A DNA stretch of 64,000 nt from Boletus sp. NGJ (Eukaryota; Basidiomycota; Agaricomycetes; Boletales; Boletaceae). Positions 9,092 to 49,000 of the stretch are shown one piece after another. The number at the start of each line of letters is the position of its first letter. Within the stretch, counting starts at the first letter, position 1. The translations under genes were made by a program, and so were the position numbers. The notes below the pieces were generated by a model. It saw only the letters and a program-made list of their open reading frames with translations, ran no database searches and was not told the origin of the DNA. The stretch lies in assembly GCA_019096195.1 (NCBI GenBank), contig JAGTXK010000239.1, forward strand, positions 930,001 through 994,000, read 5' to 3'.

Positions 9092-10490
9092 CTACGACAG
9101 ATCCATCGGCTCTTCTCCACCCTCCCCCTCTGCCAACTCCTCCCCTCTCTCTCCCGTTCCATCTTCTTGCACCTGACCCTGACCCTCCCCTTCCCCCCGT
9201 CGCCTCAGATGTGGATGACACAATTCCCTCTCGTCCATCACCGCCTCCACATCATCCTCATTCCAATCACTCGTCGCCTCCCACTCGTTCTCAAATTCGA
9301 TATCCAACGCCAACTCAGAGTCCTCTCCTTCGCTCAGCGGAAGAAAGGCAGCGAGTGCATAGGCGGTATAGCCTGCGGACCCTGAGCCCGAGGTCGGTCC
9401 CGAGCCTGCCGCAGGGGAGGGAGAGGCGTGGGAATGGGAGTGGTGCGAGGAATGACTATGGGACGACCCTTGGGGCTGCGCTTGAACCCACCGTCGTTCC
9501 CGAAGCCGTTTATGTCGTTCGCGGTCTTCCTCGATCCGCTTAAATATCTCGCCGCGGGAGAGGTGAGCATCGCTTCCGGATCCGGCGCCGCGCGAGGACG
9601 GAGGGCGTGAAGTGGGGGCAGACACAGAGCCTGCCAACGTCTCGGTAGCTTGCGTTTGCCGAGAAGAGAGCATCTGTATCACTTCGTCGACGCGTTGAGG
9701 CTCGATGATCCGTTTCGTGCGCCAGTTCTCCAGGATCTGATGGTGGACGTTAGCAAGTGAGTTTTGAAAGAGATTGGTAGATCGAACCTGTTTTGTGCTC
9801 GTCAGATTGGGCAGTCCCTGTCGGCCGACCGGGACGACACATTCCACGATTTGGCGGAGATCCCGAGAGACGTAGTCAACATAAAAAGACGTATTGGTTT
9901 GCTTGGCGTGCCTGGAAGAAGGTGTCAGCGGCCTGGAGAAACGAGCATGGGTAATGCATGATGCGAGGTGGAGGACATACGAAGACGACTCAGCTGGCAG
10001 CGGTTGGTGTGCTTTCGCAAGTAAAGACGACTCACAGAGTGAGTCGAGGAAGTAAAGAATGTTGATCCGATGATTAATGGAACCCTGATAAGAAAAAGCA
10101 GAAGACTCCGGTCAATAAATGGCCCACTGAGCCCACAGGATAGAGAACGGAAGGGAAGACAAGTGGTGAGCCCTAAACCCATCCTGCCTGATAGGACGTG
10201 CCACCGTCCACATCTGGCGTAGCACGACTGAACTACCCAAAGCGCATGGCATAAAGAAGAAGAAAAAACGACACGCCTTTTGACATTCCTCGACGATGCA
10301 CTCCCACAGGTCCTCTCCGCATCTCGAAAAATACTTGAGCGCATATCCGACCACTTTTTGGATCGATTGTTGCGTTCTGCAAGGACCACCGGTGTCATCA
10401 TCCGTGGGGCGGAAAACGTTGGGTCAACACTCACGCGTTGAGTTTTCGGAGGAGACCTAGGAACTGCATGCGTACTTCAAATGGATCCAT
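9092..10490 (-). CDS. CTK3: CTD kinase subunit gamma (CTK3-like)
   Basis: Regulatory subunit of the CTDK-I complex, which phosphorylates serine 2 of the RNA polymerase II C-terminal domain. The start at 10490 gives MDPFEVRMQFLGLLRKLNA. Next come YALKYFSRCGEDLWECIVEE and SINHRINILYFLDSLCES, the N-terminal CID-like helical fold, and then RDLRQIVE. The C-terminal half (ILENWRTKRIIEPQRVDEV, FKRIEEDRERHKRLRERRW) matches the CTK3 C-terminal domain. A histidine/serine-rich stretch and a glutamate/glycine-rich tail end at 9092. Five or so exons are visible. The second intron only restores the frame if its donor is GC (AAAAG|GCGTGT), a rare GC-AG intron. Decayed pieces of this gene's 3' end occur at 30.5-30.7 kb and 34.1-34.6 kb. 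Confidence 0.85.
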
Positions 10491-13822: not shown

Positions 13823-15595
13823 CTACCAGATGCGGGTCTCGAGCAAGAGGTCGCTGTTGCCTTCCAGCCCGAGGCAAGCCTTGAGGAAAGCATCGAGCGC
13901 ATTGCGCTGCCTACCAAGACTGTTGACGACGTCCGTGCCAGGCTTCACCAAAGGTGCCTTGCACATGTAGGACAAGAGCGACAACACCGGGTAGAGCGGT
14001 GCAAAGTCAACTTGCCCAGAGGAGACGTCACGGTATTGGACACGAGTAAGTAGCTCCGCGAGGATGGTCAAGTCCAAGATGAGTGGGGTTGCCAGAAGAG
14101 AATCCTGCGCACCGAAAGATATTAGAAAACCGAACATGCGATGTAATGAGGCGTACATACCTCGCACTCGTTGAAGATGTTAATGGTCTGCCTGCCACCA
14201 CAGAAAATTTCAGAGTAGTACTCGTCGATAGCCCTCTTGGAGTCTCCGACCGCGGGAACGTATTTGATCACAACGATGTGGTCAGGATGCTCGCCTTTGG
14301 CAGCTTTGCCCTTGGCTCCAGGAACGGGAGGTTTGTAGAGCAGGCGGTTTGCATCAACCATGTCGTCGACGACGCTGCTCTTGCTAATCTCCTTGCTCTT
14401 GAACTGAGCCTCCGCGCTCAAGTTGTGGCCATCGTTGTTACCAAGATGGTTGTAAGACGCGATGGACAATGGCTTGATGCCCGCGTTCACAAGGAATTCA
14501 GCGAGGACGGACTTGAGCTTTGTCTGGCCAGACTTGAGGTCATCACCACCGATGAAAGACTTCTCACGCTCGGCGAGCTCAATAACGCCGGGTACGAACG
14601 TGTTCTGGGGTGCGCCGTTCACAAATGGCTCACCCTCGAGGATGGCAGCGACAGCAAAGAGGGTCGAGGGAGACACTTCGGAGTGCGAGTAGCGGATAGA
14701 CGCCAGAATGCTGTCAGCAGTGTCATTCACACCAGGGATGATGTCACTGTAACGCTCAGTGTTGGCAGTCCAGAACACAATGACACGGTCCAGCTGGTTC
14801 TCAGCTTTGAAGCGACGGATGTCGGTACGGATGTGATCGAGATGAACCTGTTTATCAGTGCCAGGGATGACATTGTCGGCGCGAGCCTCTTGGTTGGCAG
14901 CTATAAAGTCGGGATAGTAGATTGAAGGAAGAGGAGAGCCTAGGAGAGTCATATGTGACTTCACTTGGCGTTGGAGATCATAGTTGAGTACGCGAGCACG
15001 TTCCATGGCCTTGTCCATGGGCATGCTAGAGATGTCCCATCCCCCCAGGACAAGGTCATTGGGATGAACCATCGGGAGCACGTCGCAAATGGGAACGTGA
15101 ATTTCCTTGGTGGTCTTGGGCTCAGAACCGATGCAGACGGTGGAGGCACGCAAAACGGAGCCGATGTAGTTGGGCTGCTGAATACCGTCCTTGGTGTGCC
15201 AGGAGATCTGGTGCTTGTTCGCAAGAATAGTAGCGCAGAGCGTAGAGCCGTTATTACCACCCATGCCGATCATCATGAGCCTGCGAGAGTTCGTCAGTGA
15301 ATACGGGCTATGGAGAGAAATCATGCACGTACCCAGTCTTGCCAACCTTGCGGGTAGTCTGGAACTCGAATGGTTTCACGGTGGGAGTAACATTGAACTG
15401 GCCGTCCGAAACAACCACGTCAGCACCGCGATAGAAGTACTTGGCGGTGATGTGCTCGTTGGTGTAGGTAGTATTTTCTGAGTTGACGTTGATGTACTCT
15501 GGGCGACGAACAGCGGTCGGATGAATTGGAACGATGGATTCGAGCTCAGAGTCGGGGGTGTTGTACCCAGAGGACGCGTAGGATTGGGAGGCCAT
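13823..15595 (-). CDS. INO1: Inositol-3-phosphate synthase
   Basis: Cytosolic NAD-dependent isomerase that converts glucose 6-phosphate to myo-inositol 3-phosphate, the committed step of inositol synthesis. Three exons, 15333-15595, 14161-15280 and 13823-14104, join to 554 residues, a normal length for the family. The start gives [20 protein letters not shown]. Signature motifs are intact: the NAD-binding loop [54 protein letters not shown] and [14 protein letters not shown]. The C-terminus closes with [14 protein letters not shown] and ETRIW. Both introns are short GT-AG (15281-15332 and 14105-14160). A TATAAAAG box lies about 220 bases upstream. No sign of decay. Confidence 0.97.
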
Positions 15596-20950: not shown

Positions 20951-22329
20951 TTGGGATCTACGCTCGTTGATTATGTGTCACAAAGACATGTAGTAAAGCG
21001 TTGAAGGACGAGACGGAAGGGTTGAAAACGAATCAACGTGGTCATCTCGCTGAATGAGATGGAAGACAGTCAAGCGTCTGGTGGGGATTAGGCGCTACGT
21101 AGCGATCCCAGTCGCAATGTGCACGACCCACACTAGAGGTGGAGCTATATTTGACTCGGAAGCAGCGGGAGAAAGTGGATGGTAAGGACACTAGGACCAC
21201 TTGAAGGGTAGGGAGAGAGAGAGGTGGAGACCCGGGGAAGCGGGTGGATCTGCCGTAGGCCGGGCGGTGTCACGTCCATAGCGGTTGGAATGTACGCATG
21301 TGTTTCAATTGTCTATTGGGGTGATGATTATATACATACTCCCCACTTTCCCCCTACCAGTCCGCCATCCCTACCAGCCGTTCATTTCAAGTTATGATGT
21401 AGGACATAACATGTAGTATATTCCTTCGGTACAACAATTTCGATTAAAGTCGCCCTTTGGAGTTTACTGGTGACAAAAGGGTATATGCGCACGCATATAA
21501 GCAGCCGCTACCTTCGAGCACAGTGGAAGAATGGCGCCGGGAAGTGCAGTGTTTAGACATCTCCGCGTTGAAGTCAGGATATATCCACCAAACCAATTAT
21601 GTGACCACTGCCACGTGCCAACGTCCCACGTTGGATGCGAAACCAAGGGCACTGACTGCCACCTGACCGCGGCTGCCATGATGAACGCATTGCACAACCA
21701 TATGACGACGTGAGTACGCTAAGATGTCGGCCACAGGCACATAATTTGACTTGTGGGAATCCTGGGTTGATCGCCCGAGCCCGCTATGTGACCAGAGAAA
21801 TGGAGGAGCGATGCGCGGGGAGGCTCTCGTGTTCGCGTCAGCTCGTAACCAAGGTCTGCTTTCCCCCTGTATCCACGGGTGGGGATGAACACGTAAATCG
21901 TTTGTCTAAGTAGAGAAGCTGAGCTTTAAACTTTGGCGTATTCACAACAGGGAGATAATGCATTGAGAAATTAGATCTCACCTGGGACAAGGATCACATC
22001 GCCATGCCACCAGCTAGTTGTAATTTTGCTGATCGAGGATTGTATACTACGCACAGTCGCGGGTGGGCCCAGGATTTGGCGCTACAAAGAAGGTCACCGT
22101 ATCACCATGAGACCATTGTCTCACACTTACTGATATACAAGCTGTAGAGGTTCATAATGCATTCCGTATTTTCCTTTCCCTCAGTAGTTTCGCCGCGCAT
22201 CTTTGCAAGCACGCCGACTCGAAGATTAGCTTGAAACATACCACCATATCACCTCATGCCAAGCGTCACATTACAGCAATCTCACAAGAGTATATCAGCG
22301 GCGGCCAGTAATCTCGATGCATCATAACC
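20951..22329. other. Gene-poor stretch
   Basis: No gene was recognised. The sequence lies between two displaced gene fragments and is probably accumulated debris. Confidence 0.4.
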
Positions 22330-22600
22330 CCATCTAGACGCTTGCATTTCTCCCTGACGGACGTGCTGTCACCGGCTCTTGTGATGGAGGTGTGTGAGCC
22401 CGGGATTTGGACAACGAGGAGCAAGAAGGACCATTACTGGTGTGTGAGAACGAACTTGCTATGACCCGGGACGGCAGGGAGGTCATCAGCAGTCACGACA
22501 ATGTGGAGATAAAAGCAAAACGTGTGGGATGTTGTCCAAGAATGGATGCGCCCGAAGAGCGCAGATGACTTTTGAAAAATGACGAGTCACTGGCTATTTC
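22330..22600 (+). pseudogene. WD40 remnant of the WD40-kinase family
   Basis: The plus strand reads LAFLPDGRAVTGSCDGGV, then RDLDNEEQEGPLL, then LAMTRDGREVISSHDNVEI. This parallels the first two blades of the WD40-kinase proteins (FLPGGRQVVTGGSC, DGTKMISVHREGEIK). A stop and diverged blade ends show it is dead. It is inverted relative to the copies at 28-34 kb and to the relic at 8.8 kb. Confidence 0.65.
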
Positions 22601-22687: not shown

Positions 22688-22949
22688 CACAACACAAAAA
22701 CCAATATTTATGATAGGTCTGAATGTTGTATGAAATGTGAAGATTGCAGTTAAAATTCAAGCCTGACATTTTCACAGCACTTAAACTTGAAAATTTTGCC
22801 TAATCTATATCTAAACTTCAAGCTTTTGCCTAATCTATGTCTAAACTTCAAGTTTAAGTGCCACAAAATGTCAAGACTAGATTTTAACTGCAATTTTCCC
22901 ATTTCATACAACATTCAGACCCGTCCTAAATATTGATTTTTGCGTTGTG
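22688..22949. mobile_element. Fold-back (MITE-like) element
   Basis: A 262-base near-perfect inverted repeat. The left arm starts CACAACACAAAAACCAATAT. The right arm ends with the complement of CACAACGCAAAAATCAATAT. The arms run about 110 bases each and share the blocks GGTCTGAATGTTGTATGAAA and GCACTTAAACTTGAA. The centre contains two near-identical copies of a block beginning CCTAATCTAT (TATC or TGTC) and ending in TAAACTTCAAG. There is no coding capacity. Size and structure fit a miniature inverted-repeat DNA transposon. No clear target-site duplication was found at the ends. Confidence 0.75.
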
Positions 22950-23694: not shown

Positions 23695-26600
23695 ATGCTC
23701 CTCTCCTTACTCTCTTTCGTAGGACTCGCGGTTGCCTGCGCCGATAACCAGCTCCACGCTCGCGACGGCCGTGCCCATGCTCATTTCCACGAAAAGCGCG
23801 AGTACTCCCAAGAACCGCTTACGACCCTATACCGTCCTCTTCCGCTTACGCCGCCATACCGTCCACTCGTCTGGGGTGACTTCAATGTGATCCACACCAC
23901 AGACACACATGGATGGCTCCTCGGCCATCAAAAGTCCAGCTGGCCAGAGCCCAACTACAGGTGAGCGTCCTTCTTCCATGCGACAGGCGAAGCACGCAAC
24001 TGTTGTGCGATCGTATTGAGCCTGATGGCTTGCGCAGCGGTGATCTTGGCGACTTTGCAAGTTTCGTCACGCATATGAAACAGATCGCTATCGTCAGTTC
24101 CCTATCGTTCATCATTCCAGAGCCTCCTTGCTAACATGCTTAGTAGGAAAAGGATGTAGACCTTCTCCTCGTCGATTCCGGAGATCTACATGACGGTAAT
24201 CATCCTGAAATTTCTCGCCAGTTCAACACTTATCCCTCTGTGTCGCAGGGACTGGCCTTTCGGATGGCTATCCTGCCGGCGGTGTGGATGCTCACGAGGT
24301 CAGCCTTATCTTCCGGATTTTGGTATCGTGCTGATTATATGCGCGAAAATAGTCTAACAAATTCATTGAGCGCCTTCCGTATGATGTGATGACGATTGGA
24401 AAGTGGGTCCAACACGGTTCCCATCGTGGTGGCACTGGTCCGATGCTTATCTCTCGATAGCCACGAATTATACGTGTATGCTGACACGTATGACATGTAT
24501 GTGCAACCAAAACGCGCAGCCTATGCCGTGCTGACCATGGCCTTGTTTTGTTTCCCTCATGCGCCAATGCACGGTTGCGCCAAACGACATACTGACAACC
24601 TTATCGTATGCATTGCATCATTGTCCGTCATCTGGACCATGACGATCGTGGTTTCCGCACCAATCGTACTATTCAATATCAACCTGTACTTGAACTCCTT
24701 GACATTTCGACAATGCACATTCGGGTGACCCCTGTGGCCAAACCCGGTGGATACGTTAATAAACTTGGATAACCAATCTCGACAGGTACACCAATTTCGT
24801 TCCTCACCTGAAAGGTCGCTACTTGACTTCCAATGTCAACATCACCGTTCTTAATTCTGATGGCGAGATTGTGAGTGTGCCGGTTGGCAGTGAGTAATTC
24901 CTTCCTCTGCTTGGTCTCAGGACGAGTTAGATTGCGACGCGATTTCCTTACTAACGTTTCTGTGCAACTTGATTGACAGACCGCTATAGGAAATTCACAA
25001 CCAGGAAGTGCGTATAGTTCTCTCACCTCTTGTCTCGCTGTGGCTTCTATAAATCAATTTGCCTTGATATTCCTTCGTCACGAGATTATTGTTCCTGTCG
25101 TTTAACCAATACAATTGTGTACAGAGGTCGCAGGGTGACATCTCTTGGTGTTATATTTGATTTCACAGGCAACCCGGCCAACACTACTGTTCAAACTGTG
25201 GCTAATATGGTGAAGGAGCAATGGGTAAGTGCAAGAATCTGTGTTCGCGATGATGTCTATAATGTTTGGATCGTTCAAGTTTGCGGAAGCCATCGCAGAC
25301 GAACCAGATGTATTCGTTCTGATTGGGTGTGTCCCAAAATTCTCATCGTGATCTTGTCTGAACGTACAACCAGCCACATGCCAGTATCTAATGACAACTG
25401 TAGGCCACGATTCATTTCATTTCAGAACCAACCTCAAATGAAGATCTGATTTTTAGGGCCTGTTGTTTTAAATGCTATCCGGGCCGTGCATCCCCACACA
25501 CCTACTTTAATTTTCGGAGGTATGCATTGCTACTTTGGCGCACGAAATCATCTGGGAGTCTGAATGCCACATGTACGCAGGACACACTCACATTCGTGAC
25601 TGTCAACAGTACGATGGAAGGTCAATGGCCATGGAGAGCGGTCGTTACATGGAAACGATTGGTACGTTAGTTACCTCCACTGGAGGTTATCTCAGACTTA
25701 TCTTTACTACAGGTTGGATGAGTGCGTGCCTCAATCTGACAGGGTGATCATGATGAGCGTCTCTGAGGGTTAACTAGGCGCGAACCTTGATGCTGCCAAG
25801 GGAAACACCAACAACATCACCATTAGTCGAAGGTATCTCGACCAAAACAGGGTCACCTACCAGGTATGCTGCCAAATTGTATCGGATTCTCGAACATCGT
25901 AGGACAAGACAATTTGTAGTACCACACCACGTTGTCGAACTCGAGTTTCGACACGTTGTATGGGCGTTCTATCACGCGCGGGTTGGAGAAACTTGCTACC
26001 GATTTTGATCTGGGTTACACGTACGGCACTGCTCCCCAGGATTATACCATGAGCCGGTATGTCTTGCCTCTGTTGAAACGTTGCACTGATCACATTGACG
26101 ATTCCCCGTAGGAATCCATACCCGTCCGGTGGAAATGCACTGACATTGTTCATTACGGAAGCGGCACCAGTCGCCTTCGCCATCAACAACACGCGTGCGG
26201 GGATTCCCAACATCATCATCACCGACTCGGGTGAACTGCGTTTCGACGTCTTCGGGGGTCCTTTTACCAAGAACGACCAGCTCACCGCCGTGCCGTACAC
26301 CGATTCATTCTTATACATCCCCAACGTAACGGCCAGTGTCGCGAACCAGGTTTTGCCTGCTTTGAACCACGCAAGCTCCTCTAAGCGTTCCGAAGTAGAA
26401 AAGGCACTGTGGGGCGGCGGACATGTCGAGAGCCGCTATCGTAGCTGGTTGGAAGACATGGGCAAACGCCAAGAAGTTCAGACGACCTACACCAATCTGA
26501 CGCTTGGATACGTCACCACGGACGTAAGAACCATCATTTCTCCTTGCGCGTTTTGCGTTTCGCGGTCACTGAATTGCAACTTTTTTTTTCTCGCATAGGG

Positions 26601-26862
26601 ATGCCCCGGGGCTGGCGACGACACGGTGCACGTCCCGCTGCCCTACTACTCAGCTCCGGATTACATCAGCTCCAACCCTCCCGATGTGACGAGCGATACC
26701 CTTATCGATCTGGTCTTTGTCGACTTTATCGAAAAAGAGGTGTTGAGCATCTTGAATGCGGTTCAGGACGCGACCAAGTATACGTCCGCGGACGTATCTC
26801 TGTACACGCCCACATTGGCCAACGCGGTGCTAGGTCTGTATGCCCAGGCAAAGTGGAACTAG
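23695..26862 (+). CDS. Secreted 5'-nucleotidase-like metallophosphoesterase
   Basis: Calcineurin-like phosphoesterase of the 5'-nucleotidase group, resembling the fungal YHR202W-type proteins. A signal peptide (MLLSLLSFVGLAVACA) is followed by the catalytic domain. Metal-binding motifs appear in order: FNVIHTTDTHGWLLGH, LLLVDSGDLHDG, MTIGNHELY, VLIGHMPVSNDNW and LIFGGHTHIRDC. The C-terminal nucleotidase-type domain includes NPYPSGGNALTLFITEAAPV, IPNIIITDSGELRFDVF and GPFTKNDQLTAVPYTDSF. A final segment ends NAVLGLYAQAKWN at 26862. About a dozen exons with short GT-AG introns are visible, giving roughly 640 residues. All expected metal ligands are present. The substrate cannot be read from sequence; nucleotide monophosphates are typical of the family. 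Confidence 0.88.
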
Positions 26863-26880
26863 GGTCCGGATCATGTCGTT

Positions 26881-26935
26881 CGATCGTGGTTATTTCCCGG
26901 ATGTAATATACGTTGGAGTGAAACGAAGTGGGTCA
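26881..26935 (+). repeat. Short direct repeat, copy 1
   Basis: Fifty-five bases starting CGATCGTGGTTAT and ending GAAGTGGGTCA, immediately after the 5'-nucleotidase-like stop codon. A copy about 90 percent alike by eye sits at 30708-30762. It is probably 3' flank of this gene that was carried along in a duplication. Confidence 0.8.
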
Positions 26936-27913
26936 TGAGTACTGAGTTGTGGTGACAAGGGAGCAGGTGCATCGCATTAGGGATCATACTGTATGGGCAA
27001 CATGGATGCCCAAGCCAGCTGAGTACATCCACCTGTCCCAGCCTCGTTGATGCATCCTGTACTGTAATGCTCATCATGGTATGACACAAATTCACGAATG
27101 ACCTTGCCCCTGTGCTCTAATAATAGTCCGAGCTCAAAGCTTCAAGGATGATGGAAGAATGATGCAGGAGATTGATGTGTCACTGACGCATCGTTCGCAC
27201 CTTGGATTCTGCCCATCCTTCTGCATCACGTAGTTCCTCGTAACCCGTTTTGCTTTCAGAGATGTATCCAACGTATATAGACCCGCTTCGTTTCAGAGAT
27301 AAGTTTGCAACGTATAGTATTAGATTATTACATCGGGGAAATATGACCGAGATAAGCGTTCATCAACGAACATCGCGTACCCTATGCCCAAACCGAGTAG
27401 CACCAAGTACAGTACAGTACTACTCAGCGGGAATCCCGAGGTGGTCCTTTGCGCGGTGCATAGTCATGAAACCGTGACCGAGAGCGATGATGGTCATTGT
27501 TCAGCATTATCCACATCTTACTAGTACATCATAACCTAAAGTGGACGGCTGGTAGGAATGCGGATTGGTGGGGGGAAACTGACCAGGGGGGACAGAGCTC
27601 CCCCGTTATCCCACATAGGGTCAACCAACAGACAATAAACTTGGATTATTTGAAAAAATTACAAACTCGAAACGGGTCACAATAGAAAGATCAGCTAACG
27701 TGCATCGAATCGACCAAAGGTGTCAATTTTGACTCAGAATCGTCTAACATAATTCGTACATATGGTACACACCGTGCACTTTCTACGCGCTGTTCCTCCT
27801 GTTCCTCTTTGAAGGATGCTCCGCATACCTGTTCTCATTACCCTCTTCATGGATGTTGACCGTCCCACTGAAGCCCTCCTCGGTCGCTTGGCTGAGAGAC
27901 GACGACGACTCCA
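26936..27913. other. Intergenic between the nucleotidase and kinase genes
   Basis: No gene was recognised. The last 40 bases (GTCGCTTGGCTGAGAGACGA near 27880) match the region just downstream of the second kinase copy at 30763, so they belong to the duplicated unit. Confidence 0.45.
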
Positions 27914-30283
27914 CTAGAAAATCCACGAATATGGAGTCAGCAACTTGGAGGCGCGAAGAGGCCCCGAATGTGGACAATCTCTCAAGAATTCTTCGATGAT
28001 GGGAACTATCGCCTCTGCAGCAGGTCGCTCATCTATTCGTGACCAACAATATTGAATTAAATTCCAGTGCGAGTCATCCATCGATCGGGACTCTGGACGG
28101 CCAGGCTTCTGGCCCTTCGCCAAGCATAAAACGACAGCTACGTCTTCCCGGACTTCATACCATGGCTGTTTGCCAGACAATACCTGCAAGAAGGTCAGAG
28201 CGAACCCGGGTCTGGTGTGCAACACACCTCCCTGCAGAGCAATACAGCCAAACGAATATACATCACTCTTTGTCGTACGAGTACCCGATGCTTCTGGATC
28301 AATTTGCTCTGGTGCAATATAGCGCAAGGCTCCTGGTCGTGCAGTGGACCTTTGAAGATAAGCCAATGCTTCGGGAATATTCCCCAACATTGAAGCATAG
28401 CCGAAATCGACTAAGCGAGCAGTGTAGTCTGCGTCGAGAAGTACGTTATTCTGTCTTTTGTTTAGGCAAGAAAAATGGGGACATTTCTACTTTGACGCAC
28501 ACAGTTCAGGTCACCATGGACAATTGGAAAAGAATGTACTGCGCGACTTTTATTCTTGTAAGCTTTCAGAATGATGACGATAACCCACAGTATTGCAGCC
28601 CATTGGCAATATCCTGCAGCTACCATGCAGGGTTAGTGGATAGGAAAGTAGTAGATGGTAAGTGGACGCACAAATTTGAGCCGGTGTTCCACATGTAGAT
28701 TCCCGTCATACTTCATTAAGAAGTTGTGAAGAGATTCGTTGGGCATCCATAAGGACACCAAGGACGACGTTGTGTCATCCATCCCAAATCCGTATGCAAC
28801 ACCTAGGAATGGAACTATATTCGTATGATCTAGTCTCCTCCAAATCCCGAGCTCTCGACGGAGCATCTGGGGGGGGGGGGGGGGAGAATTCGCATCATAT
28901 TTTCAGTCGCAACATGAATAGTTACCTTGATAGACTTATTGCTCGCATCTCCTTCTGTTGTGAAACGGAACCGGAGGGCTTTCACCGCAACCTGAGGGAG
29001 AGATAAATATGAGGCAACAATGAGCTGTATACAACGCCCAAACCTCCTTTTGCACCGAACCGTCAAGATAGTGACATCTATAGACATCACCAAAACTTCC
29101 TCCGGCCGAATATTGATTGTTGATTCTGATTCTGAAGATATGTAGCGTGAGATCTGGTGGCGGCGAAAATTGATTATCAACAAAAGTTGATTTAACGATG
29201 ATAGTACTCTAAACTGGAAGATGAGAGTGACGTGTGTGCAAAATTTAGAGTAACACACATTAGGAACAACTTGACGTGACTACATCAGTTGGGGGTGATG
29301 AGTACCAGCGCCAAGACACCCATGAATGACGTATTTACCTGATTGCTAGAGTCCCACCAATTTTCCCGCCACAAGTATATCTTTCCATTGTATTCTGCTG
29401 ATGCCACGAGTTTACCAGACGGCGAGAAAGAAACCATTACTACTTCGTCAAGGTGTTGTAGATGTTTCCCAACGGGACCACCAGAAGCCACATCCCAGAA
29501 ACGAACAGTACGATCCAATGATGCGCTCGCAAGGATCGATCCATCTGGAGAAAGGGAGAGAGAGTATACAGGGCCGGTGTGACCTGACCATGCCAGTGGA
29601 TGTCCAAATGGCTCCCCTGTTTCGGAATTCCAACAGCGAATCGTTTTGTCGTAAGATCCAGAGAAGAGTTTGCTGTCATCGCGTGACCACAGCAAACAAC
29701 GAACCACATCTTTGTGGCCTTTCAACGGGCCAAGGATGTGTGTGCCATTGGGGTTGGTTTCATACACGTGGATGTTGTCAGAGGTGCCACACGCGATTTT
29801 GTGTCCGTCGCGAGAGAAACACACGGAGTGCACTCCCTCACCAATGTTGATAGGCTGTGTGACTTCTCTCCCTTCCATGGTGTAGATAAGCAGGCGCGAA
29901 CCCCAAGTCGCAATGAGTCGATCATTCGGCGAGATGGCAACCTCGGGGTACAAGTGCGAGTGAGTCCATTGGGCGACAAGATCGTGCGATTTGACCTCCC
30001 ACACTTTAATTTCCCCTTCCCTGTGAACGCTAATCATCTTTGTGCCATCCCAAGTTACAGCAAGACTTCTTGTACTCCTGTACCCCACAGATGGCCCTGG
30101 CTCCCCTGTGTACAAATCCCAAATCCTCTGAGTCGCAGTTCCACGACAAGAGCCTCCAGTGACGACTTGTCTTCCGCCAGGGAGAAACACAAGTGTCCAT
30201 ATAGTGTCGTTGTGTGCCGGGATTACCAGATGAGGCCGAGGACTATCGTTGTCAGACAGTTGCGGTGCCATGACGCCTGACAT
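27914..30283 (-). pseudogene. WD40-kinase paralogue, rearranged copy
   Basis: One exon (29339-30283) encodes a WD40 propeller that starts MSGVMAPQLSDNDSPRPH. Downstream on the same strand lie exons of a tyrosine-kinase-like domain: glycine loop AGGSFGDVYRC, lysine strand VAVKALRF, catalytic loop HGDL, then NNVLLDADYTARLVDFGYAS (DFG intact), APEQIDPEAS and SDVYSFGCIALQ. The catalytic residues survive. Compared with the copy at 30799-33762, three things are missing: the zinc-finger first exon, the WD40-to-kinase linker exons, and the splice acceptor before the kinase (GTTGATAA where the other copy has GTTAACAG). Propeller and kinase therefore do not join in frame by any splice I could find. One intron has a 16-base poly-C tract. 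A separately expressed WD40 protein is possible. Confidence 0.65.
28869..28884 (-). repeat. Poly-C tract at an intron acceptor
   Basis: Sixteen consecutive C on the minus strand (G on plus), directly before the CAG acceptor of the exon that starts MLRRELGIW. The second gene copy lacks this run. Confidence 0.9.
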
Positions 30284-30544
30284 GGATGTGCTATGGCAGT
30301 TGGTTGGAAGCTATGTTTCTTGTCGGCGTGTTCGCAATGGTGCGTGGCGAAGGATTGAGGAAAGGAAAATGTTCACTGCCTGAGAAACTACTACAGCTTT
30401 TATACCGCGAGGTAAGCATGAGGCAATACAGCGGCCTTAGCGCCTATCCTGACCACCTTCGTGCATAGTACAATCTGCCCAGACTATGACCACATCTTTC
30501 GTCTTGCGGGATCAGCTTGTTGGTCTGTCTCTAAAGTGAGATAT

Positions 30545-30700
30545 TGGTGCGCTTGTATGCATTCTTCCAAAGCTTTCCCGACCATCAGAAGTTGAATGCG
30601 CCTATTTGTCGTTCTAGTACATGTCACCCGCCTATGACAGATCCATCAGGTCCTCTCCATGCTCTCTCTCCCCACCCTTCACATTATGCTTGGGACCTTG
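30545..30700 (-). pseudogene. Short fragment of the CTK3 3' end, unit B
   Basis: Sequence such as GCATTCTTCCAAAGCTTTCC and CACCCGCCTATGACAGATCC matches the equivalent region at 34060-34235. It also matches, more weakly, the CTK3 stop region at 9001-9120. It covers the end of the CTK3 coding sequence and the DNA just downstream. It is too short and diverged to encode anything. Confidence 0.6.
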
Positions 30701-30707
30701 TGGTTGT

Positions 30708-30762
30708 CGATCGTGGTTATATCCTGAATGTAATATACGTTGGACTGAAACGAAGTGGGTCA
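30708..30762 (+). repeat. Short direct repeat, copy 2 (duplication junction)
   Basis: Second copy of the sequence after the 5'-nucleotidase-like gene (26881-26935). Here it runs straight into GTCGCTTGGCTGAGAGACGA, the 3' flank of the kinase gene. It lies directly beside the CTK3 fragment, so it marks where two repeat units were joined. Confidence 0.8.
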
Positions 30763-30798
30763 GGTCGCTTGGCTGAGAGACGATGACGACTACCGTGA

Positions 30799-33762
30799 CT
30801 ACTCCACAAGAGAATCAGTGTGGTTCGGTTGTGATCCCAGCAATTCGTGAAGGGGTCGGGAACGTGGACAATCTCTCAAGAATTCTTCGATGATGGGGAT
30901 TATCGCCTCTGCAGCAGGTCGCTCCTCTACTTGTGACCAACAATCTTGAATTAAGTTCCAGTGTAAGTCGTCCATCGCTCGAGACTCTGGACGGCTTGGC
31001 TTCTGGCCATTCAACAAGCATAAAATGACAGCTCCGGCTCCCTTGCAGTGGATTTCCGACCATGGCACTTTGCCGGACAATACCTGCAAGAAGGTCAGAG
31101 CGAACCCAGGTCTGGTGTGAAACAGACCTCCCTGCAGAGCGACACAGCCGAACGAATATACATCACTCTTTGTTGTGCGAGTACCCGATGTTTCTGGATT
31201 ATGTTGCTCTGGTGCACTCCAGCACAAGGTTCCTGGTTGTGTTGTGGACCTCTGGAGATAACCCAATACTTCTGGAATATTCCCCACCAAGGAGGCATAG
31301 CCGAAATCGACTAAGCGAGCAGTATAGTCTTCATCGAGAACCACATTATTCTATCTTTTGTTTAGACAAGAAAAAGGCAGATATTTCTACTCAGACGCAC
31401 AGGGTTCAGGTCACCATGGACGACCGGGGCAATTGGAAAAGAGTGTACTGCGAAGTGTTATTCTTGTAAGCCTTTAGAATGATAACAACAACCCACAGTA
31501 GTGCAGCCCATTGACAATATCCTGTAGCTATTGTGCAGGGTTAGAGATGGAAAAGTAGTAGATACTAAGTGGACGCACAAACTTGAGTCGGTGTTCCACG
31601 TCTATTTTGTCTTCATACTTCATTAAGAAGTTGTGAAGAGATTCGTTGGGCATCCATAAGGACACCAACGACATTGAGCCCTCCATCCCAAACCCATATG
31701 CAATACCCAGGAATGGAACGATATTTATATGGTCTAGTCTCTTCCAAATCCCGAGCTCTCGACAGAGCATCTGGAAGGCAATTCACATCAATTTTTTTAA
31801 GTCACAACACGGTTAGCTACCTTGACAGACTTATTGCTCGCATCTCCTTCTGTTGTGAAATTGAACCGGAGGGCTTTCACCGCAACCTGAGGGAGAGGTA
31901 AACATGAGGCAACATGAGCTGTACACAACGCCCAAACCTCCTTTCGCACTGAACCGTGAAGATAACGACATCTATAGATGTCACCAAAACCTCCTCCGGC
32001 CGAATATTGATTGTTGATTCTGACGATATATGGTGTGAGATCTGGTGGCGGCGGAAATTGACTGTTAACAAAAGTTGATTTAACGATGTCAGATGATCGT
32101 ACTACAGGGTAGCAAAGTGACATACCCAAGGCTGGAGATTTCACACTGTTGTCCCATCGTCGGCAAGGAGGTTGAGCACGGTACAATTGGACGAGGTAGC
32201 ACAGGTACCTGTGGGAAAATTTAAGCAATGAAATGAACAACCGTAAGTGGCAAATGCTCACTTGTGCAAAAGGGTCGAAATGCCATACTTGTTCCGCGCC
32301 GGGAAGAAGCCCAAGAGGGGGCTAATTGGAAGATGAGAGCGATGTGCGTGTAAAATTTAGAGTAACACACATTAGGAACAATTTGGCGAGCCTGCCACAG
32401 TGGGAGTGATGAGCACCAGTGCCAAGACACACGAATGGCGTAATTACCTGGTCACTGATAAAATCCCACCGAGGTACCCGCCAGAGATATATCTTTCCAT
32501 TACGTTCTGCTGATGCCACGAAATCTCCAGATGGCGAGAAAGAAACAATTACTACGTCCAGACGGTGTTGTAGCTGTTGCCAAACGGGACCACCTGAAGT
32601 CGTATCCCAGAAACGAATAGTCGTATCCTGAGATGCGCTCGCAAGGATCAATCCATCCGGAGAAAGGGAGAGGGAGTTTACGCCGCTAGTGTGACCTATC
32701 CATGGTTGTCCGATTGGCTTCCCTGTTTCGAAATTCCAACAGCGTATTGTTTTGTCGTCGGATCCAGAGAAGAGTCTGCTGCCATCGTGGGACCACAGTA
32801 AACAACAGACCCAATCTCTGTGGCCTTTCAACGGACCAAGGATATGTGTGCCACTGAGCTTGGTTTCATACACGTGAATGCCGCCAGAGACGCTGACACA
32901 CGCGAGTTTGTGTTCGTCGGGAGAGAAACACATGGTCTGCATCCTCTCACCGACCTTGATAGAAGGGATGACTTTGCTCCCTTCCGTGGTGTAGATATCG
33001 ATATCCAGGTGCGAACCCCAAGTCGCAATGAGTCGATCATTCAGCGAGATGGCAACCTCGGGGTACCAGTCCGAGTGAATCCATTCCGTAACAAGCTTGT
33101 GTGATTCAACCTCCCACAGTTTAATTCTCCCTCCCCTGTGAATACTAATCACCTTCGTGCCATCCAAAGTCATGGCAAGACTCCACATTTCGCTCCCGTA
33201 CGTCACAGATGGCCCTCGCTTCTTTGTGTCCAAATTCCAAACCGTCTGAGTCGCAGTTCTACCATGAGATCCTCCAGTGACAACTGCGAGTCGTCGTCCG
33301 TCAGGGAGAAACGCGAGCGCCCGTATAGGGTCATATTGCGCCAGGGCAGGCTCAGTAGATAGAACTGGGCCCGAGGGTGATGGACCAGCCAGAGAAGATG
33401 ACGGAAATAGGGTTGAGGGTATTAGAGACCGAGCACTAGGCTGCGCTGAAGCAGGATCAGGCGAAAAACTTGATCCACTCCCAGGTATCATCGAAAGGAT
33501 ATTGGGGAATGAGAGGAATTGGGGGAAAAAGTGAAAGAATCGACATTGGGGATGCTAAAACGAATTAGAGAGCGGGCATGAACATCGATGTTATACATAC
33601 CTTTGCAAGCGGCTTGCCACCATTTCCATTACGGTCACTGCGACATATGGACAAGGGCACAGTCCCACCGCAGGTTGGGCAGTCAACGCTGAGGCCAACT
33701 GATGATGCCCTGACACCAGCGGCAGTGAGGATACGCCAATCTCCATGATCGAGTTGTGACAT
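30799..33762 (-). CDS. Zinc finger-WD40-tyrosine-kinase-like fusion protein
   Basis: Intact copy, read as one gene of roughly 780 residues. Exon 1 (33601-33762) starts MSQLDHGDWRILTAAGVRAS and carries a GRF-like zinc finger (CPTCGGTVPLSIC, then GGKPLAK). Its last ligand comes after a 46-base intron (HPQCRFFHFFP). Exon 2 (32448-33554) is a seven-blade WD40 propeller with blade ends VWNL, LWEV, IYTT, VYET, CWNF, FWDT and LWRV. Small linker exons follow (LLPGAEQVWHFDPFAQ, then VPVLPRPIVPCSTSLPTMG). They splice in frame to QFPPPPDLTPYIVRINNQYS and a kinase domain: AGGGFGDIYRC, VAVKALRF, VVHGDLNPNNVVLDEDY, LVDFGYAS, APEQHNPETS and SDVYSFGCVALQ. It ends at 30799. Phases agree at every junction I checked. 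The kinase has HGD in place of HRD, as in many fungal TKL kinases. Two separate genes is the alternative reading. Confidence 0.72.
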
Positions 33763-34059
33763 TGAGAAAATCCTTAGGCGGCGGACAACAGGCAGCGGGC
33801 AGTGGGCGACAGGCGACAGGCGACAGACAGGCGGGCGCAAGCAGCAGGCAGATAACAGCGAGCCATGCAATCTACGGCCATCATAACGCTGATAGACATC
33901 TGAACTCCGCCTGAACTGCTCCTGGTCCTTCCCAGCATTCAACTCCCAGACTTCCTGACCGTTCGTCCCGACCAGCTTTTGTGCATACACGACCACCTCG
34001 TTCGTCTGGCGGGATCACCATGTCGGTCTATCTCCCAAGTGACTCGTGAGGTATAGCTC
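33763..34059. other. Upstream flank of the fusion gene
   Basis: Contains the presumed promoter of the fusion gene, with the direct repeat GGCAGCGGGCAGTGGGCGAC and degenerate copies of GGCGACA near 33785-33830. The block near 33980-34040 is similar to 30486-30545 upstream of the rearranged copy, so it belongs to the duplicated unit. Confidence 0.45.
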
Positions 34060-34555
34060 CTCGGCGCGCTTGTATGCGTTCTTCCGAAGCTTTCCCAGAA
34101 AGTTGAATCCGTCTATTTGCTGCTCTAAAGTTGATGACCACATTCACCGTACATGCATGCCAGCTTTGGACTCATCTCATCGTCCAGACATGCAATATCA
34201 CCCGCCTATCACAGATCCATCCGGTCCCTCTCCCCACCCTTCACGTTATCCTTTCCCTGACCATCCACTTCGCCCCGGTATTCAAGTACAGAAAATACAT
34301 CTCCCTATCTTCTATCACCAGCTCCACATGGTGCTTCCAATCATGCATCGCCTCCCATTCATTCTCCAACTCGATATCGGGCACCAATTCGGCGTTTTCA
34401 CCGGAAAAAATGGCGAGTACACAAGGGATATATCCTGCCGTCCCTGGGCCCGAGCCCAGTGGGAATGATGTGAGGAATGACCATGAGACCAGAGTTGGGG
34501 TCGCTCTTGAACCCACCGTCGATCTCGATCTCGTTTAAAGAATATGGGAGCGGTG
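34060..34555 (-). pseudogene. Decayed copy of the CTK3 C-terminal region, unit C
   Basis: Minus-strand pieces read RDRDRRWVQERPQLWSHGHS, then GSGPGTAGYIPCVLAIFSGE and PDIELENEWEAMHDW. They parallel the CTK3 C-terminus (RERRWVQAQPQGSSHSHSS, GSGSAGYTAYALAAFLPLSE, LDIEFENEWEATSDW). The pieces lie in different frames and the domains that fold are absent, so it is a dead partial copy. It sits upstream of the fusion gene, as CTK3 sits upstream of the WD40 relic at 8.8 kb. Confidence 0.8.
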
Positions 34556-35064
34556 CGTACACGATGACAGTTCCTTGTGGGACTGATCGGATTAACGCAA
34601 AAGAAGCCTGTTTGCGAGCTCGCTTTGAGGACAGTGTTCCCGATGATGATACCACACATACCGTGGATGAGACACCCAAGGATATAAATCTACCCTCAGC
34701 GCTACCTCGATAGCCGAGTCACGAGGCGACCCAGAAGATCGTGCACGAACACGCAGAGGGCGAGTCTTTCATCCTTTTCGCCTACTTGGTTGTCCCCTAC
34801 AATCTAAAAGCAACCATCGACGCTCCTGTCGTATACCCTGCTTTTGCTGCCTGCCTCTCCCTCCATCACAGTTCGATGCATTTCACAGTCGAACCCTTTA
34901 AGTTTTGCCCATTTTGTCGTCTGTTGATCGCTCAGCTGTAGATAGTCGCGTGATGCAATCACAAGGTCAGTTCTGACGGACGACTGCGAGAAACAATCAG
35001 TATGCAAAGTACAGTACAATACACCCTGCCGTTTGTCACCACCCGCCACGCGGCGCAAGACCCC
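34556..35064. other. Intergenic between the CTK3 fragment and GCN1
   Basis: No gene was recognised. Short plus-strand open frames show no family signal. The end of the stretch is presumably GCN1 3' untranslated sequence. Confidence 0.45.
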
Positions 35065-38000
35065 TCAGAATATCCCCACCAAGCTCTCCTCCCCGTCTGC
35101 TGCCATCTCTTTCAGGATTTCCCGCGCGTCCCGTGCCGGACGCGAAATCGCAGGCCGCTCGTTCGCCGCGCTCTCCTTGACCTTGAGCGCCACGCTGCGC
35201 AATACCCCTTGTTTGGCGAACAACGTCTCCTCGGGTCGGATGTGCTCGTCATCGTCTTCAGGTCGAAGGACCGCAAGGATGGTGTGAGACGAGAGCGCTG
35301 ACGGAGGCGTCCCCGAGACGAGGTAGGCACTAAGGGAAGCGTGAGATGACCATATCGCCGTGCAAAGGAAACAAAACCCTCACTTTACGACCGAGTTGAG
35401 CGACCGTGCGTTGGTCGACAAGGACGCGACGAGACTCGCCATCGCGTGTATGTAGTGATCTGCACACACACAACCAAAAGCATGAGATCGACATCCGTCA
35501 TTGAAAACAATTCGCTTCTGACCTTCATGCGTCCCACGGAACCCTTCGTGAACCAATTCGACACAGGTTTCCCTCGCCTTGTCACCCACCCCGCCATGGA
35601 CAACTGCGCTCCGAACGACGTGCGACAACGCCAACACGAAACTCGCCGCAATTTCCTCCTCGCTCCCTCGCGCACCCCCGATGAGCTCCGTCACCACCGG
35701 ATCCACACGCGGTTGACTGCGCATCAAAACGCCGAGCGCACCCGCAGCGCGCGTGCGCACGACAATGCTCGACGGATCGCCGACAGACTTGACAAACGTC
35801 CGCTGCAGCTGTGGGAAGAACGGCTTGACGTGGTTCGGTATCCTCTCCAGCATCGTAGCGAGGGCGGTCAGAATCGCAGTCTTCACTCCAGGTGGATAGG
35901 TCGTTGCTTGTGTTGCAACGCGGATGAGTGGACCGGTGAAGGGAACGACGAACGGCTTGATGGCAGATTCTTCTGTTCTCTCGACGAGGTCTCCGATCGC
36001 GTAGGCAGCATTTTCGCGTTGTTCGTTGCTTCCCGTGGTGAGACCTGCAATAATGATGGGCACAGTAGGCGCCACACCCTTGGGCAAGCTGAAGCCAGGC
36101 ACAGTCCGTCCCGGGGCGCCCGTCCCTTCGATAGTCCGGCGAAGCGGAACGACCAACGGTTCCAGTTCGTCCTTTGGTACAGGCTTGACAAACGTATCAA
36201 ACGCTTTCCACGCCGCAGTATGAACGTCGACCTCGAGATCGTCAAACAGGGAGATCAGCTGTCGAACCCAATCCATCCGGTACAAGGACGAATCGAGTTC
36301 CGATTCTTCGCAAAATATGGAAAACAGATCACATGCGCTCGTACGGCGTGTCGGTGAATCGCTCTTTGTCCTGTTATATCCCCAAGTCAGACGAAAAGAA
36401 CGTGCCACCAGCACGAAACGCGCGTACCATCCAAGCAGTAACAGCATCAACGTGTTCAACCCTTCCGAATCCTCGATCGATCCAAGCAATGCACGCAATG
36501 CCTCGTCCAAAGCAGCAAGCAATTCTTCGTCCTTTTCCTCCTCCAGCACCTTGACCAACGCATTCAAGATGACTGTCAGACGTTTGCTCAGTGCATTACC
36601 AGCCACAGTGACGAGCGACGCAAGCGCGCGCGCGTTGAACACCGTCATTGGGGTCGCGATCAACGTAGGAATCAACACGGGGAACACCGTCGCCGCCCGA
36701 ACCTAGCGCATACACGCATCAGCACGCTAGCCATTCCCCAACAAGCCCACCACTCACCGACATGACTTCCTGAAGAGCTTGGAGGGCAGTCCCAGAGCTC
36801 TCACCGGGTTGACGAAGAGCCTCCAGGAGCGTAGGTATCGTCTGATCAATAGCCTTGGCCCCGATATGCTCCTGAAGCGTGTCAAAGGCTTTCGCCGCCG
36901 CCGTCCTGACAGTCGCGTCGTCGTCGACAAGCGAGGTCCGGACCATATTGATAATCTCGCTCTCATGACCATCGCGCTGCGTATCGGTCGTGCTTTCCCT
37001 GTGAAAACCGTCAACAAGCATCAATAGAGTACAAGGACAGACTTACATGATGTCCGACAGCATGAGGCATACACCTTGACGGGTACGCGCAACGGGTGAC
37101 GTGACCGTGTTTTGCAAAATCAGAATGATCTCGCCCAGAATCCTTTCGCCAAACTTGCGACACAGCTCGGCAGTCGTGCGTGTTGCCGTCTACGCTCGAG
37201 GAACACGCAGTCTGATGAGGGAACACAAAGCAAAAAAAAATATGAAGACAGCACGAACCTCTTGCTGCTCAAACTCGTCACTCGAACACAGCTTGACAAG
37301 CTGGCCGACCAACTCGGGCAGAATCTCACGAACTAGGTAGAAGAAGAAGAAGGATGGACATTAGTTGGTTGTTCTCCCTCGTTTAGAGTGGTCCATACCT
37401 GTTCTAGGCGTATTGTGCACGAGTGCCTTCCAGATATGGATGGACGACTGACGGACAACGTTGACGGCGTCTTGTCTCGCAAGGTACAACGCCGACAGAA
37501 TACGATCCCGTCGTTCAGCGCCCAACACCTCCGTCAGCGCGCGACGCGAGGATTCCGCAACAACAGCCTCGGCCATATCTTCGTCGTCCCCAGCCTCAGC
37601 CTTGCTCGCAATCCCAGACACCTTGAACAACAGCTCTCCCACCAACGTGATCGAGGATTGCTAGGAGAGAAAAACAGCAACGGCATCAACACACGAGAGC
37701 AATAACATCAAGGGGAAGCAATAACCCACCCTGATTCGCCATCCAGGATCAAACATTCCTTGCTCCAACTCGGGCAACAACAAATCGATCGCCTTGCTCG
37801 AATAATTTGTCACGATCATCCTCCCCGCCCGCATCGCCGCCTCCCTGACCTGCTCCTCTGTGTCCGACAACCCGCTCAATATCGGGGCGATGATCTTGGG
37901 CAGATGGGGCTGGAACCGGTTCCCAAACGTCGCCGGTAGGTAGACGAGGAGCGACATGAAGCCTTCACGCAAGGTACTCCGCGGCGACTGCGCGTTCGCG

Positions 38001-46022: not shown

Positions 46023-49000
46023 TCACGCTTCCCGCCGCCTCTTGACACGGCCCCGGCTTTCACTACACAAGGTAATGAGCCCAACACGAACCCAACAAAA
46101 AAGAAAAAAAAAAAAACGAAACGCACGCAAATGCCCTATTCTTTCGTTTCCGACTCTCCTTTTTCATCACATTCCTCGCCAACTTGCGTTTCGCAGCTGC
46201 CTCAGGGTCCGTCGTCACCTGCACCACACGTCAGCATTGCGTGTCATGCACGATATAGGGGGGGAGAGTAAATGACGTTACCTTGGTCACCCGTGCAACC
46301 CGCCGTGCCTGCTGCACGCTCACCACCCCCTGTCGAATCCGATTGTACGCGTTTGCAAACGCCGTCGTGCCCACTTTAGCTTGGACGAGGTCCTGCAACT
46401 CGACCGCGGTCGTCTTGAGCTCCTCTATCCCAGGGGACGTCAGCGCCGCGGTGAATGAACAAGGAACGACGTACCCATTCCCGAATCCCGGATGGTGTCT
46501 TCCTCCGTGATACGATAGACGGGCGTGAGGATGTGGGGCAGGAATCGCTCTAGCTGCCTCGCCCCCATAAATGACGTCATTGCCGCAAAGAAACGCAGCA
46601 CCGATAACGGCGAGAGCGTCCAGTTGGCCTGCAGTTCACAAGTTGAGAATACGGTCGAGGGAGAGAGCATCACACACGTACCGGAGCGGTCGTTCTGTTT
46701 CGCCGTGCGATCTGTGCAGATCGGGCTTGATACGAGAGCTTGGAAAAAAGCCACGGGAGCGCGTCCGATCGTCCCTTGTCCGGACTCTCCTCCTGTTCCT
46801 CATCGTCGCCATCGCCATCATCATCACTTTCGCCCTCCTTCGTCTCCTCAGTCCCACCTCCGTCCGACAACCGTGCCACGAACCACTTGCCCACGAAAAA
46901 CAAATTTTTGACCGCCTGCAACGCCACGGTGGTCTCCACGTTTGGACTCTTGAGCAGCGCCCCCAACTTGTCCGCCACGTCTCTCATACCCGCATACGTC
47001 AACACCCCCTCTGCCCCCGCATCCTCCGTCGTAGTTGTAGACGCCGCAAAGAGCACCCCAAGCAACCGACACGCCGCGCTCCGTACCCACGCATGTGGAA
47101 ATGCGAGCAGCTGGACGACAGCCCTCCATCGCACCTTGCCAGGCTCTGTCGTCGCCTCCGGAAACACCTGCAGCACTTTAGCCAGGCCCTGTAGCATTTG
47201 GTAGGTCGCGTGCCACTCCCCATCCGCATCCACGTCCATTTCTCCCTCGTCCGCATCCTCCCCCCCATCCCTGGAAAGCAACGCACAGCTGCTCTCCGCA
47301 ACGGCCCCAAAGTCTTTCAACATCTCATCGAGATACGGCGCCGCTGCACGCTGCAACGCATCCACGACGAGCCCATACACCTGCACCGCGACGCTTCGCA
47401 ACGTCCCTTTTTCCTTCTGCACCGCCCACGCATGCAAATGCCCCATCACCGTCCGTTCTAGTAACGGCTGTTGTTGCTGTTGCTGTACCCCCTCCAACCG
47501 TCGCACGAGCACCTGAATCACCCCCGCAGCAGCCACCCGACACGGTTTCTCCGTATCGTTGGCCACGCACAGCACGAGTGCAACAAAAAGCATATCGGCA
47601 TGCTTCGCCATCAGACCCATGTCGAACTTGGTGACGAGCGCGTGAAGGAGCTCGAGGACGCTCGATCGGCCCGACGCGTGCTCGTACGACAGGTTCCGCG
47701 CAAAAAAGGCAAGCGTCGTATGCAGACGCCCTGCACCCTGTGGGTAGTCGAGCAAGAACTGGAGGAGGAGCGACCGTGCGGATTCGCGCGTGTGCGACGA
47801 CTGCGAGGTGACGAGGATGGACGACACGGTCGTCATGAGATCGTACAACTCGGGCACGACGAGCTTGCGCGCGACGATCGCGCGTAGTAGAGCGAACACA
47901 CTCGCTTGTCGACTCGGCTCTTCGAGGTCTGGCGCGAGGAGTTGGAGGAGGAACAAAAGGTCGTCCTCCTTGACATTCGAGGTCGGACATTCCCGCAGGA
48001 TCGTCGCGAGGGACTTGAATGCGGTTTGAGCAACCTCGGATTCAGCACTCCCGACGGAACGAATGATGGCAATGATCTGGCGAGACATGAGTGGCGCTGA
48101 CGAGGGAACGGCCTTCAAGGGACATTGGAGTATACAAGGAGCGGCTTTGAGAGCTGCAACGATGACAGCTTCCGATTCGGCATACAACGTGTTCCCGATC
48201 AAGTTGACATACGGTTCCAGTCTCGCCAACAGCTGTGCGTCATGCAGGTCAAACCGTGACCGTCGATAGGCCGTCGTGAACAGATCGAGCCCAAACACGA
48301 CGAAGCTAATCCAAGGAAAAAAAAAAAAAGATCAGCCCCGACACGCAAACACGACGTAGACCGACATACCGGTACGAATTGTGTACATAGTAATCATTGT
48401 CTACCACGATCTTTCGCTTGGTCTGAATAATGCGGTCGTCCTTGCGTCCCCTTCCCTTTACCGATGTCGCCTTCCTCTCCGCCTCCTGTAAAAACTTGGC
48501 ATTCTGGCTGACGAGCGTATGACACAGCACAAGCAACTCTGGCGGGTCCAGACGCGCGTTCGCATTCAACCCACTCGCGATCCGCCGAAGCACCTCGTCC
48601 ACCTGCTGCATCGGCCTCGCCGAATTCGTCACCTCCATCACAGACCTGAGCGGCAATAACAGTGCACTGATCCGATTCGGCGACACGTAGCGTGCAGAGA
48701 GCGCAAAACAGTCTAGGCCCTTCGACACGCTCCCCTTGACCTCCCGCATCTTGGTCTTGAAGTCCTCGTGCTGAACGTCTTTGCCTGACTCGCCAAACAC
48801 GACTTCGGAGGCGACGTGCGCGATGTCGTCGATGCACCCGTCCAGGTCGTCGAACGCGGCGTCTGCACGGTCGGGCGAGGTGACGTAGGCCAACAACGCG
48901 TGCGTGACGTAGGCGAGTACGTGGAGCTGCGGACCACGCAAGAGCGCCGCTCGGAGCTCGCGGAGGGCAAGTGGAAGATACACAGGACCCAACGCGACGG

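Follow-up and report, generated by a model that had tools for sequence, protein, structure and literature searches.

The question raised by this locus of Boletus sp. NGJ is whether a single gene on the minus strand, at positions 30799-33762, joins a recognition part to a kinase. The window is the whole stretch of 64,000 nucleotides that was analysed (C89:930001-994000), and the genome searched comprises 141 contigs with 32.8 Mb. The initial annotation had read three domains in this gene, a GRF-like zinc finger, a WD40 propeller and a kinase, and had proposed that the first two sense and the third responds. In our model, the gene (gene A) splices into a WD40 propeller followed by a TKL kinase. 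It has eleven exons (Table 1), with an ATG at 33762 and a stop at 30799, and the model confirms both ends as originally given. All but one of its ten introns are GT..AG and measure 46-126 nt; the exception, the tenth (31131-31084), starts with GG. Short introns of this kind, together with the UTP20 and GCN1-like neighbors (Table 1), look fungal. The join of exon 1 to exon 2 is in phase across a 46-nt GT..AG intron, as annotated. Both annotated linker exons are bounded by good splice sites, yet the region can also be read through as a single longer exon (ORF 31797-32321), and the linkers have no counterpart in the neighboring gene copy described below.

Table 1. Features of gene A, its tandem copy B, related loci and neighboring genes. 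Positions are those of the window unless a contig is given.
Feature	Position	Strand	Content and evidence
Gene A exon 1	33601..33762	-	MSQLDHG..., CPTCGG motif, first half of possible GRF-like zinc ribbon; GTATGT donor at 33600, phase 0
Gene A exon 2	32448..33554	-	HPQC, Ser/Pro-rich stretch, seven WD40 blades; Pfam WD40, AlphaFold2, PDB matches
Gene A exon 3	32262..32321	-	short linker PPLGLLPGAEQVWHFDPFAQ; AATTAG acceptor, GTGAGC donor; not in copy B
Gene A exon 4	32126..32208	-	short linker VPVLPRPIVPCSTSLPTMGQQCEISSLG; CCACAG acceptor, GTATGT donor; not in copy B
Gene A kinase exons 5-10	31132..32061	-	32061-31938, 31886-31821, 31770-31579, 31527-31497, 31447-31401, 31350-31132; glycine loop, VAVK, HGDLNPNN, DFG, APE, helix F start
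Gene A 48-nt piece in helix F	31084..31131	-	GGLFHTRPGFALTFLQ, GG donor; GG..AG intron or 16 in-frame residues
Gene A exon 11	30799..31083	-	end of kinase C-lobe and stop; gene model
Copy B exon 1	29339..30283	-	WD40 propeller, no zinc-finger exon; Pfam WD40 E 1.9e-37; 66% identical to gene A propeller
Copy B kinase exons	27914..29208	-	29208-29044, 28991-28926, 28866-28672, 28619-28589, 28538-28501, 28450-28232, 28183-27914
Copy B 48-nt piece	28231-28184	-	GG donor, counterpart of gene A 31084-31131; gene models
WD40 and TKL-like kinase outside the window	C117:215-219 kb; C112:37-41 kb	one strand	match lists compared by eye, without gene models
L040, two copies			helix-F introns 48 and 50 nt, GC donors
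L041, one copy			helix-F intron 47 nt, GT donor
L043, one copy			helix-F intron 79 nt, GT donor
L044, one copy			helix-F intron 70 nt, GT donor
L045, three copies			helix-F introns 48-49 nt, GT donors
CTK3	9095-10111	-	ordinary neighbor
myo-inositol-1-phosphate synthase	14125-15375	-	ordinary neighbor
GCN1-like HEAT repeats	35383-36702	-	ordinary neighbor
UTP20	48309-51821	-	ordinary neighbor

The propeller and kinase exons fared well. Exon 2 matches Pfam WD40 at E 2.9e-34, and seven blades can be read in it by eye. AlphaFold2, given a two-sequence alignment, modeled this propeller with a mean pLDDT of 72.4 and a pTM of 0.73. A Foldseek search with that model returned WD40 structures, with 5yzv the best match and seven-blade structures, including seven-blade designs, among the others. 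Exon 2 is thus predicted to form a seven-blade WD40 propeller, as first proposed. The Pfam rows for the parts of gene A (for the WD40 part, the best 25 of 48 rows) include no NACHT or NB-ARC family. The spliced kinase, with the 48-nt piece of helix F left out, matches PF07714 at E 5.3e-35 and PF00069 at E 1.2e-32. Its motifs read AGGGFG, VAVK, HGD with the following asparagine, DFG and APE, so that the glycine loop, lysine, HGD and DFG of the original reading are all present in the model. Among the best 60 of 2085 PDB sequence matches to the kinase, 59 are BRAF, RAF1, CTR1 or TNNI3K (two of the BRAF matches being fusions), and one is EGFR. We take BRAF, RAF1, CTR1 and TNNI3K to belong to the TKL group. 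With BRAF, CTR1 and TNNI3K as its closest relatives of known structure, the kinase of gene A is assigned to TKL by sequence match.

Directly downstream of gene A, at 27914-30283, lies a second gene, copy B, with the same WD40-to-kinase layout. At the DNA level the two are 85.1% identical in the kinase part (1252 alignment columns) and 80.7% in the WD40 part (1025 columns); to judge from their sequences, they are tandem duplicates. Copy B has neither the zinc-finger exon nor the stretch 32089-32323 that holds the two linker exons. The flanks of the two copies also differ. About 946 bp (26936-27881) stand downstream of copy B with nothing like them downstream of gene A, and the flank of gene A at 30707-30791 is contiguous, whereas its counterparts near copy B, 26880-26935 and 27882-27910, are set apart. 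Inside 26936-27881, short segments of the left flank appear again in inverted orientation, at 27280-27295 and 27326-27343.

The divergence of the two copies is uneven. The propellers share 66.4% identity over 289 codons, with NG86 values of dN 0.205, dS 0.268 and omega 0.77 and a YN00 omega of 1.11, so the omega of the propeller as a whole is not clearly above 1. The kinases are 77.1% identical (239/310 residues), with dN 0.129, dS 0.250 and omega 0.51 by NG86 and an omega of 0.66 by YN00. Nonsynonymous change is denser in the propeller (pN 0.179) than in the kinase (0.117; p 0.0014), while the synonymous rates are alike (p 0.73). The excess in the propeller persists, weakly, when the hot spots described below are removed (p 0.03). 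In the DNA alignment, the exon indels between the copies keep to multiples of three. Neutral evolution was simulated with 0.105 changes per site and copy, and both copies stayed free of stops in 1/2000 runs for the propeller and 2/2000 for the kinase; therefore, the reading frames of both genes are under selection.

The hot spots fall on one face of the propeller. Three top-face contact residues per WD40 blade, R1, R1-2 and D-1, have been defined (available text of PMC3419727). This makes 21 positions, one of which meets a gap. Of the 20 alignable, 16 differ between A and B, compared with 82/271 of the other positions (Fisher 1.5e-5; the pattern was noticed by eye before the test was scripted, and sites are treated as independent). 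Under register shifts from -8 to +8, the true register gives the maximum, and the next best is 13/20 at -2. At the contact codons, pN (21/46.3) exceeds the pS of the whole propeller (47/203.2; p 0.0024), and also the synonymous rate of propeller and kinase together (p 0.0009). With gaps moved by hand, a variant alignment gives 16/20 versus 83/271, and the rate tests are weaker on it (p 0.011 and 0.004). A second pair, the propellers of the C117 and C112 loci, differs at 15/20 contact positions versus 124/262 others (p 0.015). The enrichment of top-face change thus comes from two gene pairs, and the excess of pN over pS from one, A/B. By site type, the A/B changes number 7/7 at R1-2, 4/6 at R1, 5/7 at D-1 and 2/7 at D+1, and the sites between the paired positions (R1-2/R1 and D-1/D+1) changed at 2/7 and 2/7.

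This distribution partly resembles what is known of the HET-D/HET-E propellers. According to the available text of PMC1805685, strong diversifying selection acts there on two pairs of codons, 7 and 9 on either side of a conserved site ahead of strand a, and 25 and 27 on either side of another conserved site, in the b-c turn. By our own mapping, codons 7 and 9 would correspond to R1-2 and R1, and codons 25 and 27 to D-1 and D+1. With that mapping, three of the four selected sites coincide with hot positions of the A/B pair, but the fourth, D+1, is not enriched in it. The two genes also differ from HET-D/HET-E in having no near-identical blades, since no tandem repeat is called within 26000-36000.

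The mechanism we favour is the following. Gene A and copy B would both be genes for an intracellular WD40-TKL protein kinase, in which the propeller is the recognition part and binds a partner protein or peptide through its top face, and the C-terminal kinase, a member of the RAF/CTR1-like TKL group, provides the output. Binding of the partner would switch the kinase on or bring it to its substrate. After duplication, the contact positions of the two propellers would have been altered, and the kinase less so, and the two propellers probably recognize different partners. The likeliest use would be nonself or stress recognition, in a genome that also appears to have genes of the NACHT-WD40 (NWD) type. 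The domains, the layout common to both copies and the spread of the changes are read directly from the DNA; what the propeller binds and what the two genes are for, we infer. The change on the top face supports, without proving, the division into a sensing propeller and a responding kinase. Of the original sensor-and-output idea, the propeller half gains from the gathering of differences on the top face, at HET-D/HET-E-like positions by our mapping, and the zinc-finger half is not well supported. Taken whole, a diversifying recognition propeller feeding a kinase is the best supported of the mechanisms considered, held tentatively, at a little under an even chance.

The strongest competitor is an ordinary propeller for scaffolding or substrate docking in growth or developmental signaling, with relaxed constraint after duplication speeding the change between A and B. 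The top faces of many WD40 families vary. They serve as general docking sites (available text of PMC3419727), and the NG86 omega is below 1 in both domains. However, relaxation fits poorly with indels that keep to multiples of three, with frames that stay open in both copies and with nonsynonymous change at the contact codons above the synonymous rate. We regard this explanation as somewhat unlikely.

Less probable still, and in our estimate quite unlikely, is that the two genes encode pseudokinases that bind without phosphorylating, or are a pair in the course of being lost. The argument turns on intron 10, whose donor at 31131 is GG, so that it is either spliced as GG..AG or read as 16 extra residues in helix F. 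The 48 nt are open in frame in gene A and copy B alike, and 16 residues inserted in helix F could weaken the kinase. Eight related gene copies at five loci carry an intron of 47-79 nt at this position, with GT donors in six and GC in two (Table 1). L042 also has one, its donor read one codon off by the search pattern, while at L046 there is a GT donor for which an acceptor was looked for and not found. Compared across these copies, the position is an ancestral intron site, and a GG donor in both A and B, where related copies have GT or GC, lends the idea some weight, as do the degraded family pieces in the window (described below). The 48-nt piece is 45/48 identical between A and B, which says little, because one true intron is equally similar (48/51). 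Against loss of function stand the catalytic motifs, intact in both copies, the open frames and the kinase omega below 1 by both NG86 and YN00. In the favored mechanism, the kinase is presumed to be active.

The favored mechanism requires propeller and kinase in one chain, and here copy B carries the main argument. From the stop at 29209-29211 to the glycine loop, its kinase exon contains no methionine and therefore needs an upstream exon; the WD40 exon lies 130 nt upstream and has a matching phase-0 donor at its end. A start-less kinase exon with a phase-matched WD40 exon argues that WD40 and kinase form one protein. In gene A, there is an in-frame ATG upstream of the kinase exon, so a kinase-only start is possible for that copy. 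The fusion, as first annotated, is very likely real, with the gene model, the tandem copy and the start-less exon all in its support, and the gene models predict one transcript across both parts. That these are a WD40 gene and a separate kinase gene, merely fused-looking, is very improbable: the intron between the two parts of gene A, if retained, would lead to a stop after 41 more codons, gene A has its in-frame ATG, and the nearest kinases, on C65 and C81, lack a WD40 match within the 10 and 4.5 kb searched beside them, but the copy B kinase exon offers no start before its glycine loop, and only 126-130 nt separate the WD40 exon from the next exon, with donor and acceptor phases matching in both copies.

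The zinc finger is a different matter. PF23549, a GRF-like zinc ribbon with a curated Pfam cut-off of 27 bits, gives 17.6 bits on exon 1 alone, to which exon 2 adds 2-3 bits, for 19.8-20.5 bits (E 7e-4 to 4e-4) on the spliced exons. Thus, the first exon does have a zinc-finger score, below the cut-off, and the CPTCGG and HPQC exons are joined in phase as originally described. The match is probably not due to chance. After CPTCGG comes the C..F pattern of the ribbon, and the candidate zinc ligands C28, C31 and C58 are present, with H55 a possible fourth. Placing an extra cysteine next to H55 lifts the score of the altered sequence to 27.4 bits, which suggests that the profile expects a cysteine there. 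One cysteine of the profile, therefore, seems to be missing from the ribbon of gene A, and His55 might stand in for it. No second copy of the exon-1 region (33370-33990) was found by DNA search or by protein search with an approximate junction in the query, both of which returned only its own match, nor was a zinc-finger exon found in copy B. A search of the genome for GRF gave six partial matches, none above cut-off; it says little about absence because exon 1 of gene A is not listed either. As a firm domain the ribbon was rejected on its score. The role of sensor that had been given to it is poorly supported, in view of the same score, the apparently missing cysteine and its absence from copy B; it is possibly an optional, degenerate addition to gene A, accessory at most. 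Since the zinc finger is weak, the three-domain shape of gene A is not established.

Several known systems share part of this design. Kinase and WD40 occur in one chain in PkwA-type bacterial kinases and in LRRK2, in the order kinase then WD40, the reverse of gene A and copy B, and LRRK2 also has ROC-COR. The best structural match of the gene A propeller, 5yzv, shows the WD40 domain from a Thermomonospora protein, which we take to be PkwA itself. What is known of nonself recognition in fungi comes mostly from NOD-like receptors whose output is cell death. Gene A differs from the fungal NWD receptors in its kinase output, and no NACHT was found in its parts. The TKL expansions of Agaricomycetes (Laccaria TKL, FslK lineage) are, like these genes, TKL-type, multigene and locally duplicated (available text of PMC2838846, PMC3937382); 'wd40' occurs 0 times in the main texts of those two papers. 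The plant proteins Lr9 and Sr43 likewise fuse a kinase to a non-kinase part proposed as a recognition decoy, but in another kingdom and with vWA or unknown domains, and 'wd40' occurs 0 times in the available text of their description (PMC10260399). The initial annotation knew of no well-described system of this shape. That stands for the three domains together, with no GRF-WD40-kinase protein described in the titles and abstract openings of the literature matches listed, but not for the WD40-kinase combination, which may recur at two more loci in this genome, where WD40 lies close upstream of a TKL-like kinase, and which occurs, in other arrangements, elsewhere. WD40 and kinase in one chain is already known, and the novelty would lie in a fungal WD40-TKL pair that diversifies. 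A broader claim, which we consider doubtful, is that A and B represent a fungal class of kinase-fusion recognition receptors, in which a TKL kinase with a fast-diversifying WD40 propeller would replace NACHT-WD40 and top-face recognition would be wired to phosphorylation. If true, propellers coupled to a kinase and diversifying at their contact face would be a second way of wiring recognition, similar to that of the kinase fusion proteins in plants, and some of the TKL kinases that are still unexplained in mushroom-type fungi would gain a role.

Relatives in the genome were sought by comparing lists of kinase (at least 104) and WD40 (at least 150 and at least 139) matches by eye; the counts are lower bounds. 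WD40 stands directly upstream of a TKL-like kinase on the same strand in at least four places: gene A, copy B, C117 and C112. Beside the closest kinase on C109, no WD40 match was found in the 4.5 kb searched. In an unrooted kinase tree with several low inner supports, down to 0.10, A and B group together (support 0.90) near the C65 and C81 kinases, while C112 and C117 group elsewhere (0.96). A single origin of the WD40-TKL layout was considered and is not upheld, as the tree separates the two pairs; given the low inner supports, repeated fusion and repeated loss are both possible. Under the broader claim of a receptor class, the similar top-face change of the C112/C117 pair, on its other branch, would mean that the design had more than one origin. 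Eight NACHT matches occur in the genome, all followed by WD40 within about 1.6 kb on the same strand, as judged by eye, and thus NWD-type genes appear to be present.

The best-scoring propeller matches outside copy B are repeats on C41, C65, C114 and C137, 42-47% identical over two to three blades, and one C114 match is 27% identical over the full length. Contigs C70, C71, C19, C68, C139, C17 and others carry numerous open WD40 frames, about 300-370 aa long, the majority of them 21-28% identical to the gene A propeller over most of its length. By eye, none of the listed relatives of the gene A kinase lies on the six contigs named, and by their sequences these frames make up a large WD40-only family. 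Further TKL-like kinases occur on C20 (208-408 kb), C107 (187-195 kb), C21, C59 and C31, clustered on the first two, and a RELGIWKRL-like motif is present in most of those aligned.

Within the window, two isolated, degraded pieces of the WD40 family remain: one blade at 8816-8947 on the minus strand, 61% identical to a gene A blade, and an N-terminal piece with stop codons at 22323-22514 on the plus strand. Family members evidently decay, which suggests birth and death near the A/B locus. At 22688-22949, there is also a near-palindrome with 30-nt repeats, whose 85-nt arms are 86% complementary around 92 nt, possibly a small transposable element or foldback.
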